DNA of 64,000 bases from Acetobacterium woodii (GTDB lineage Bacteria > Bacillota > Clostridia > Eubacteriales > Eubacteriaceae): the NCBI GenBank assembly GCA_016213825.1, contig JACQZP010000024.1, positions 1 to 64,000 of the forward strand, written 5' to 3'. Position numbers and translations under genes: made by a program. The notes beneath the pieces were generated by a model. The model did not search any database. It was not told the DNA's origin and saw only the letters and a list, made by a program, of their open reading frames with translations. Shown one piece after another: positions 60,816 to 63,127 of the stretch. Each line of letters starts with the position of its first letter. The first letter of the stretch is position 1.

Positions 60816-61145
60816 CTAATCATAAAAAGTCATTCGAACCTGGCCATTGGCATCAACCGCCGGGCTGTAATCGTCGGAGTGACACTTGGGGCATCGGGCT
60901 TTGGCACTAAATCGATAATACCCGTTCTCACAGGCTCCGGCGATGGCTTCAATCGTTTCAATCTTTTCCGATTTCGCAAGAGCGGGATTCTGATCATTAA
61001 TTTTTGCTTTAATTTCTTCCGATCCAATCACTTTTTCTTCACCGCAGGTATCGCAGTGGAGTAGATAAAAACTAAATCCGCCGCCTTCCCGGACGTCAAA
61101 CTCGGTCTGACACTGGTTACATCGCGCTTTAAACTGTCTGCCCAA
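60816..61145 (-). CDS. Zinc-ribbon protein of unknown function (TTG start)
   Basis: A 109-residue protein with three cysteine pairs: CNQCQTEF, CDTCGEEK and CPKCHSDD, a treble zinc-ribbon layout. The start is TTG at 61145 with GGAGGCGATAAAA upstream. It lies just downstream of the flagellin gene, about 50 bp away on the same strand. I do not recognise the family. Confidence 0.7.
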   Translation of the reverse strand: MGRQFKARCNQCQTEFDVREGGGFSFYLLHCDTCGEEKVIGSEEIKAKINDQNPALAKSEKIETIEAIAGACENGYYRFSAKARCPKCHSDDYSPAVDANGQVRMTFYD

Positions 61146-61195: not shown

Positions 61196-62902
61196 TTAAG
61201 CCAGTAACTTCAAGATATTCTGGGGTTGCTGATTGGCCTGAGCCAACATCGACTGGGCCGCCTGAGACAGGATGTTGGTTTTGGTGAATTGCATCATTTC
61301 CTTGGCCATATCCACATCCCGGATACGGGATTCCGAAGAGGTCAAATTCTCGGATGCCGTTTCCAGGTTCTTGATGGAGTGTTCCAACCGGTTCTGATAG
61401 GCTCCCAGCCGGGAACGTTCAGCAGAGACCTGACCAATGGCCGTATCACAGGTACTAATGGCGGCATCGGCAGCGGTCCGACTATCTACCTTTAAACCGG
61501 AAAGCCCCAGAGCGGAAGCCCGCATATCACTGGTCTGAATATCCATGGTCTGGCCGGTATTGGCCCCCACCTGAATTGAGAAAGACTGGGCTGCTGAAGC
61601 AGAAAGATCCGGCCAAATGATATTAAAGTGCGACATTGGCTGATCCATCTCTGGAGCCCCTGGACCGGCGGATTCTGGCATGATGTCTTCGGCATTTTTA
61701 GCAGCACCACCATTTGCATCCAAGCCGATGGCAGCACCGGTATCTGTTTCAGCTCCGGCATCGAGTAGTATATTTGTCAGACCGCCATAAGAGGCATCAT
61801 TTACAGCTAGGCTAAAATGCGTAGCAAACTGAGCTGCATCAAGAAAAATTGCAAACGTATTAACACTACCGAGTGCATCATCCAAAGTCGAGCCCGCATG
61901 TGTCGCCAAGTATTGAAGCACGTCTTGAACACCAGCTCCACCTGCACCTTTAATCTGTCGATCCATATACCGCACCGCTAGATAAGCCGAACCGTAATCA
62001 TCACTGCTGCCATCCCAATCAGATGCCACCCCGGTTCCAAAATTGGCAACTACCCCAGTAATTGAACCAAGGGATGCCATTGCCGACTCCAACCGTTCAT
62101 CGCCACCATGGGTAAACTCGGCCACCCCTTCAATAAACCAGGTGGGCAGCGCACTCATATTCGTGGTAGCCATCATCACCGCATGGGTCATCTCATGGGC
62201 GATTACCCGATCCACATATTGAGGAGCTGTTCCTCCATCTTGAGTATCAGTCGGTTGGGCATAAGCCAAATTGATTCTCAGGGTCATATCCGTTGCAGTC
62301 CCACCAACTGAAGCCGCTGTCTGATCACTGGCGTCGTTAAAAAACTCCACCGTTAAATCAACCTTCGGTGTAGCCCCCCATAAATCACCATAGCTTGCTG
62401 AAACCAGATTTTCAGCCTCATCCAACCACCATTTTTTAAGACTGGACATTAGATTCTGCTGATCGGCTGCATTGACCGAGGCATTCCCCTGATTAAGCAG
62501 TTTTTTGGTATTAAACTCGGTGTTGTTACCAATCCGATCCACTTCCGCAACCAGTTGATCTATTTCCTTTTGAATCTCACCCCGATCATCGGTTGTGTTG
62601 GTATCATTAGCAGCCTGTACGGATAATTCCCGCATGCGCTGGACCAGAGAATGGGTCTCCCCTAATGCGCCTTCAGCTGTTTGAATCAGGGAAATAGCAT
62701 CTTTGGCATTGGCGCCAGCTTGATCAAGCCCCCGGATTTGGCCCCGCATCTTCTCCGAAATAGCCAGTCCGGCGGCATTATCCCCAGCCCGGTTGATACT
62801 TTGACCTGAAGACAATTTTTCCAGCGCCTTGCTGGCCAGGCCATTATTCTGATTTAACTTTTGGTAGGTATTGAGAGCTGCAATGTTATGATTAATTCGC
62901 AT
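61196..62902 (-). CDS. Flagellin with inserted metallopeptidase domain (flagellinolysin type)
   Basis: A 568-residue flagellin. Residues 1-150 (MRINHNIAALNTYQKLNQNN…ISEKMRGQIRGLDQA) and 430-568 (…SRIRDVDMAKEMMQFTKTNIL) are normal D0/D1 filament domains. The surface-exposed centre, about 150-430, holds a gluzincin-like peptidase: HEMTH at 236-240, then 17 residues, then E258 in WFIEGVAEF as likely third zinc ligand. This is the layout of the proteolytic flagellins described in 2017, which assemble enzymatically active filaments. AGGGAGGTGAAACA precedes the ATG at 62902. Two flagellin genes, or one, cannot be told from this window; a standard flagellin probably lies elsewhere. Confidence 0.93.
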   Translation of the reverse strand: MRINHNIAALNTYQKLNQNNGLASKALEKLSSGQSINRAGDNAAGLAISEKMRGQIRGLDQAGANAKDAISLIQTAEGALGETHSLVQRMRELSVQAANDTNTTDDRGEIQKEIDQLVAEVDRIGNNTEFNTKKLLNQGNASVNAADQQNLMSSLKKWWLDEAENLVSASYGDLWGATPKVDLTVEFFNDASDQTAASVGGTATDMTLRINLAYAQPTDTQDGGTAPQYVDRVIAHEMTHAVMMATTNMSALPTWFIEGVAEFTHGGDERLESAMASLGSITGVVANFGTGVASDWDGSSDDYGSAYLAVRYMDRQIKGAGGAGVQDVLQYLATHAGSTLDDALGSVNTFAIFLDAAQFATHFSLAVNDASYGGLTNILLDAGAETDTGAAIGLDANGGAAKNAEDIMPESAGPGAPEMDQPMSHFNIIWPDLSASAAQSFSIQVGANTGQTMDIQTSDMRASALGLSGLKVDSRTAADAAISTCDTAIGQVSAERSRLGAYQNRLEHSIKNLETASENLTSSESRIRDVDMAKEMMQFTKTNILSQAAQSMLAQANQQPQNILKLLA

Positions 62903-62983: not shown

Positions 62984-63010
62984 TTATCGGACCAAGTTTA
63001 AAAAAACTAA
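62984..63010 (-). promoter_or_regulatory. Weak sigma-28-like promoter of the flagellin gene
   Basis: TCCGATAA (62984-62991) is close to the sigma-28 -10 GCCGATAA. Fifteen bases upstream is TTAG instead of TAAA. Placement 80 bases before the flagellin start is sensible, but the -35 is poor. Confidence 0.4.
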
Positions 63011-63055
63011 GCAATTTCTTAGAAAAATTATTTTTTTGCCATTTATTATCAAAAA

Positions 63056-63092
63056 AAATACAACCCTGATGTTTCTGATTTCATCAGGGTTG
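63056..63092 (-). terminator. Terminator after ileS
   Basis: Stem CAACCCTGATG / CATCAGGGTTG followed by TATTTTTTTT on the minus strand. Confidence 0.88.
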
Positions 63093-63127
63093 CCTGTCTC
63101 TTTTTTTACTTAATCACGTATTTGGTG

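Follow-up and report, generated by a model that had tools for sequence, protein, structure and literature searches.

A flagellinolysin gene in Acetobacterium woodii, predicted to encode a second flagellin with a gluzincin-like zinc-peptidase insert

In the window, that is, the whole 64,000-nt stretch of Acetobacterium woodii DNA analysed here (assembly GCA_016213825.1, contig JACQZP010000024.1, positions 1 to 64,000), a gene designated flaMP was located at 61196..62902 on the minus strand. Its product is very probably a flagellinolysin, a second flagellin in which a gluzincin zinc endopeptidase forms the hypervariable surface region and which would be co-polymerised into the filament as a minority subunit. 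Judged by its sequence, FlaMP is a member of the flagellinolysin family already described. By analogy to the two flagellinolysins shown to be proteolytic, those of Clostridium haemolyticum (PMC5595980) and Hylemonella gracilis (PMC7643111), it is probably active as a protease.

Flagellin domains and peptidase insert of FlaMP

The flaMP ORF runs from an ATG at 62902, with a GGAGG ribosome site upstream, to a stop at 61196 and encodes 568 residues; the coordinates and motif residue numbers given in the original prediction agreed with this translation. The filament domains D0/D1, described there as intact, were recovered far over the Pfam cut-offs at both ends of the protein: Flagellin_N (PF00669; residues 3-140, 150.9 bits, cut-off 26.6) within the N-terminal filament core of residues 1-140 (62483..62902, minus strand), and Flagellin_C (PF00700; residues 484-567, 103.2 bits, cut-off 23) at 61202..61453 on the same strand. 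A model of the whole protein (mean pLDDT 64) aligned with solved flagellin structures, which made up the 50 matches listed (Z 16.7-20.9). Approximately 343 residues separate the two domains, and not the 280 first reported for the insert. Against the NCBIfam equivalog model NF033876 'flagellinolysin', FlaMP scored 380.6 bits (cut-off 205, E = 1.1e-113), in a match that spans residues 110-499 and so includes some flagellin sequence.

As read in the ORF translation, the surface insert contains HEMTH at residues 236-240 (62183..62197; all insert features lie on the minus strand), with H236 and H240 as predicted zinc ligands and E237 as the predicted general base. The active-site alignment comprised 23 domains, 19 from flagellins and 4 from non-flagellin proteins. 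The flagellin rows had been chosen by HExxH, so the conservation of H236, E237 and H240 in 23/23 domains is partly by construction, and the other columns are the independent result. E258 (62129..62131), in the context FIEGVAE, is the best candidate for the third zinc ligand, as originally proposed, with Glu in 22 of the 23 domains and Ala in one. A261 (62120..62122), kept in all 23, is the probable counterpart of the 'basement' Ala265 of the C. haemolyticum protein FliA(H), whose role is taken from the available part of PMC5595980; E258 and A261 were both invariant across 7 aligned sequences. The combination used as a criterion for flagellinolysins, namely HExxH, a distal Glu and a basement Ala, was found in H236, E237, H240, E258 and A261. 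Y303 (61994..61996), an invariant Tyr (23/23), may serve as transition-state stabiliser. The column of N211 (62270..62272) holds Asn or Asp in all 23 domains and Asn in all seven Acetobacterium copies; it probably corresponds to Asp206, a calcium ligand in FliA(H), a pairing made by position alone, FliA(H) lying outside the alignment. Outside the genus, identity to the FlaMP insert was only 21-34%, yet the active-site residues were kept.

Modelled alone, the insert gave a structure of modest confidence (pTM 0.67, mean pLDDT 59) with a predicted gluzincin-like zinc-peptidase core at approximately residues 145-370 (61793..62470). The order of its elements, a helix, strands, the HExxH helix (model residues 93-109) and the glutamate helix (117-127), is that of gluzincins. 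VIA-align matched the model to lugdulysin (M30; Z 11.0, with 211 residues aligned at rmsd 3.7), to collagenase G (Z 10.9, with 228 residues) and to collagenase H (Z 10.3, with 233), which count as ties, being less than 1 apart in Z; many M1 aminopeptidases and LTA4H were also among the structure matches. All 50 matches listed, of 303 with Z ≥ 2, were gluzincin-fold by title (M1, M9 and M30, and one TFIID), with Z from 9.4 to 11.0; the TFIID entry contains TAF2, which is M1-like. Foldseek alone returned nothing for the insert model at E < 0.001, the best being 3.9e-3 for M61 and M30 peptidases. Scores of FlaMP against Peptidase_M9 (PF01752, 16.7 bits, gathering cut-off 26) and the Peptidase MA superfamily (PF13485, 24.2 bits, gathering cut-off 32.4) were below the cut-offs, and the protein is placed in neither. 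Family model, model fold and conserved residues agree with the original prediction of a gluzincin-like protease in the flagellin surface domain; the lack of a zinc-peptidase core, which would have spoken against that prediction, was not observed in the insert model. A chance HExxH motif was also considered and was ruled out because of the NF033876 match and the gluzincin-like fold of the insert alone.

FliA(H) and HgrFlaMP of H. gracilis were compared with FlaMP by description, not by alignment, from the available parts of the two papers. FliA(H) (PMC5595980) likewise has flagellin N- and C-terminal domains around an HExxH...E gluzincin in the hypervariable region, and it shares with FlaMP the basement Ala and a coexisting structural flagellin. 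It differs in the calcium-site residue (Asp206, where FlaMP has Asn), in the ligand spacing (24 residues between His237 and Glu262 in PMC5595980 numbering, against 17 between H240 and E258 in FlaMP) and in the location of its gene, which is in a flagellar cluster whereas the Acetobacterium gene is not. HgrFlaMP (PMC7643111) has the same architecture and is likewise encoded away from flagellar genes, but in a Gram-negative host and beside other neighbours. The 17-residue spacing of Acetobacterium FlaMP was found again in the two copies of genome G716 (L163 and L170, family f135), whose flagellin core was placed apart from the Acetobacterium flagellins. Clostridial collagenases (M9) and lugdulysin (M30), which resemble the insert model in their gluzincin fold (Z 10-11), are not flagellins. 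As for other papers, the available part of PMC12153261 touches on proteolytic flagellins only in naming that of P. tunicata, and PMC11499241 was set aside, as its available part concerns an M60-like enhancin and not flagellins. The name Acetobacterium has 0 occurrences in the main texts of PMC5595980 and PMC7643111 (supplements aside), and no report of a flagellinolysin in this genus was found in the literature searched, mostly judged from listings, although its absence from print is not thereby established.

Genome context, distribution and the neighbouring gene znr

The original prediction had proposed looking for a second, ordinary flagellin gene, and one is present. Three Flagellin_N matches were found in the window's genome: flaMP, an ordinary flagellin at G000:C35:93307, on a contig other than that of flaMP, and FlgL at C35:91214. 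The ordinary flagellin matched NF009446 (flagellin Hag; 379.6 bits, cut-off 352) and lies beside flagellar genes, with FlgK and FlgL exceeding their cut-offs and with matches below the cut-offs to FlgF, CheD and a FliA-like sigma factor (partial, cut by the stretch edge). By comparison, flaMP sits between ileS and pheA, far from the flagellar genes. A terminator-like hairpin with a T run (63050..63105, minus strand; MFE -22.1 kcal/mol, z -5.95) lies between ileS and flaMP; therefore, flaMP probably has its own promoter. A degenerate sigma-D-like promoter element, TTAGT-N15-CCGATAA (62984..63010, minus strand), is suggestive only, being one of two matches in the window to a loose pattern fitted after the site had been seen. 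Scored with a sigma-D consensus, none of the seven FlaMP genes was significant, since between 27 and 163 of 200 shuffles did at least as well. The 14 regions upstream of structural flagellins, by contrast, reached 10-11 of 11, and at most 0-5 of 200 shuffles equalled them. The string CCGATAT, preceded by letters similar to TAATG or TTATG, was observed upstream of 5 of the 7 FlaMP genes; the upstream region in genome G018 has no such element. A general promoter scan found no more promoters than in shuffles and listed no terminators (loops ≤8). The distance from the flagellar cluster and the degenerate promoter weaken the case for co-expression of flaMP with the filament. Near flaMP, the segment 48598-53293 of the window contains genes that resemble, by their translations alone, those for a lactate dehydrogenase, two subunits of an electron-transfer flavoprotein and a regulator of the GntR type.

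NF033876 was over its cut-off in 7 of 19 Acetobacterium genomes, and these seven were the only ones among the 40 genomes of the family; in a class sample, 4 of 391 genomes were positive, three of them from Acetobacterium. An orthologue (L035) is present in the record of A. wieringae DSM 1911. With a profile built from the peptidase part, matches at E ≤ 1e-5 were obtained in 9 of the 398 genomes of a phylum sample, including a weak one of 26.4 bits. The original description of proteolytic flagellins as rare holds for the class sample and fails for the genus. In all seven carriers, flaMP has the same position between ileS and pheA. In 11 of the 12 non-carriers, pheA follows within 70-284 bases of the ileS end and flaMP is absent; in the twelfth, G009, the contig ends inside ileS. 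Genome G010, whose IleS score is the highest after that of the window's own genome (98%), has an empty site nevertheless. The presence of flaMP in the genus is patchy, and therefore the trait is dispensable. An ordinary flagellin was present in 7/7 carriers and 7/12 non-carriers, numbers judged too few to weigh. A viral or prophage origin was rejected, as the scan of viral_contigs for flaMP relatives yielded 3 pattern stretches, 0 of which were confirmed.

Downstream of flaMP, after a 50-base gap, lies znr (60816..61145, minus strand), which has a TTG start and encodes a zinc-ribbon-like protein of 109 residues. It adjoins flaMP in all seven carriers, with 63-79% identity in the other six. Its Pfam matches, to zinc ribbons and to HypA, were all below cut-off, HypA being the best (25.5 bits, cut-off 28.9). 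Among the 12 non-carriers, a match to znr was found in G012 alone, over 47 residues with 45% identity, at the ileS-pheA site and without flaMP; three of those lacking a match are 81-87% complete genomes. The 47-residue stretch in the ileS-pheA gap of G012 (locus L143) resembles the end of znr and looks like a deletion leftover. In the class sample, 3 of 381 genomes had a match, all of them Acetobacterium. The co-occurrence of flaMP and znr is an association that appears compatible with joint loss through one deletion; it does not prove a joint function, because the genes are adjacent and one deletion would give the same pattern. Neither a zinc-ribbon partner nor non-flagellin relatives were found in the available main-text parts of PMC5595980 and PMC7643111, supplements aside.

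Histories of the flagellin core and the peptidase domain

On the IleS tree of 19 genomes, the presence of flaMP needs 6 changes, at least 2 of them imposed by well-supported branches. The tree of 12 full-length sequences united the seven Acetobacterium FlaMP proteins in one clade (98/98), which the two G716 copies joined (100/100). A grouping of six Acetobacterium copies excluding that of G013 was not decisive (p 0.183). Genome G017 is paired with G006 in the FlaMP tree and with G016 in the IleS tree, and this conflict suggests that flaMP was exchanged within the genus.

For the flagellin core, an earlier selection had reduced 143 sequences to 82 by leaving out incomplete cores and duplicates; the core test used 70 of the 82 rows, 12 on long branches or stems being dropped by choice and the long L158 and L072 being kept. 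The idea that all flagellinolysins are one flagellin lineage was discarded, the flagellin-core tree rejecting such a clade (AU p 0.00265). One clade of Acetobacterium FlaMP with the structural flagellins of the genus was not rejected (p-AU 0.86). The first core tree placed FlaMP with the genus's own flagellins (SH-aLRT 89, unstarred); in the second, the free search missed that grouping, and the constrained tree had the higher likelihood. Derivation of the FlaMP core from the genus's own flagellins is favoured on these trees, though not proven.

In the peptidase-domain tree, a branch with the seven Acetobacterium copies alone on one side appeared in only 42% of bootstraps, and they were not separated from G716. 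Related peptidase domains were found on non-flagellin scaffolds as well (L090, L091 and L157): the RTX proteins of L090 and L091 fell in a clade with the family f114 flagellinolysins (99/98), the 875-residue protein of L157 paired with the flagellinolysin of another family (L159; 100/100), and well-supported branches require no fewer than 3 switches between flagellin and non-flagellin. The five non-flagellin rows of this tree include L156, which has a very long branch and is uninformative. By phylogeny, the peptidase domain is thus separate in history from the flagellin core; the domain has probably moved between scaffolds, in either direction. Whole-gene and domain-only transfer have both been described for flagellinolysins in the available part of PMC5595980, according to which the source of the peptidase insert is undetermined.

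The genes of L090 (2230-7875 and 8063-12574) and L091 (2179-7758) encode very large proteins of uncultured Selenomonadales with the peptidase domain and without flagellin. Those of L090, the second of which runs off the locus, are two such genes in a row; RTX calcium-binding repeats were observed in L090 2230-7875 and in L091, the two that were scanned whole. Stretches of L090 and L091 scored 105.9 and 99.1 bits against NF033876, below the cut-off of 205 of a model that counts flagellin parts too, and L157 (L094) scored 112.8 bits. The protein of L157 (1764-4388) has a signal-like start, as seen by eye, and a peptidase domain close to that of the L159 flagellin. In L156 (4783-10506) of A. wieringae (G016), a protein of 1908 residues has a signal-like start, again by eye, and HEFQH; its similarity to NF033876 is only distant (33.3 bits). 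Genome G450 has tandem flagellinolysin genes, L173 (586-2478) and L167 (1066-2838). L173 has Ala for the third-ligand Glu and is possibly an inactive copy.

Proposed function and alternative explanations

D0/D1 would most likely allow export of FlaMP and its co-polymerisation, as a minority subunit, with the cell's ordinary flagellin; the filament would thus display many protease domains. Such co-assembly is expected by analogy to the described family, the C. haemolyticum flagellinolysin having been found in the filament (PMC5595980). Zinc would be held by H236, H240 and E258, and E237 would activate the water that attacks the peptide bond. The same analogy suggests that the enzyme would depend on calcium and would cleave broadly in front of large hydrophobic residues. 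As for ecological use, the simplest guess is that FlaMP would release peptides from proteins near the cell. Peptide feeding and the cutting of a partner or host matrix, both raised in the original prediction, are among the possibilities discussed in the available parts of PMC5595980 and PMC7643111, and damage to the flagella of other bacteria has been suggested as a role in the latter.

An improbable alternative is that FlaMP is mainly a soluble protease, which leaves the cell through the flagellar export channel or is shed, an option raised in the available part of PMC7643111. The location of flaMP beside ileS, away from flagellar genes, would fit it, and the occurrence of the peptidase domain in non-flagellin proteins implies that filament tethering is not essential to the domain; however, D0/D1 are more conserved than the insert (median dN 0.11 vs 0.24 in the seven carriers, with dS saturated), a degree of constraint beyond what an export signal alone would call for. 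It seems very unlikely that the insert is a surface domain without catalytic activity, retained for a role in structure, adhesion or antigenic variation: the zinc ligands and the general base are kept in all seven Acetobacterium copies, although only 121 of the 331 positions at residues 140-470 are invariant, and dN/dS of the peptidase part is ≤0.18 in all 17 pairs, of 21, for which it is finite, which is low but obtained with saturated dS. The Ala at the third ligand of L173, in which the rest of the motif is kept, indicates on the other hand that dead copies may exist. It is also quite improbable that flaMP is a recent foreign arrival and not a settled part of the genus. Such an arrival would account for the patchy occurrence in 7 of 19 genomes, with changes on the IleS tree no fewer than for shuffled labels (equally low in 361 of 500), and for the empty site in the close relative G010; but the constant ileS-flaMP-znr-pheA order in the carriers, the single FlaMP clade and the znr remnant in G012 point instead to an old gene that was lost repeatedly, or exchanged inside the genus. 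A flagellinolysin co-polymerised as a minority subunit is therefore retained as the best explanation.

A broader reading, which we regard as tentative and on the unlikely side, joins the two genes: flaMP and znr would be a module gained and lost together at the ileS-pheA site, with znr as a dedicated partner and the peptidase as a mobile cartridge. On that reading, the znr product might be, for example, a cytosolic factor that keeps the peptidase from folding or from acting before it is exported, or might link peptidase synthesis to zinc, and the cartridge would have moved more than once among flagellins, RTX proteins and other secreted scaffolds.

Acetogens are mostly known for gas fermentation. 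The present finding, mostly an expected one, places enzyme-bearing flagella in this group. Acetobacterium offers both carriers and natural non-carriers with a clean empty site, and it is not known as a pathogen, so that the purpose of proteolytic flagella could be addressed by deletion in a non-pathogenic organism. The RTX and secreted-looking non-flagellin relatives bear on the origin of the peptidase insert, and greater novelty lies in the zinc-ribbon companion znr and in the apparent swapping of the peptidase domain between scaffolds.
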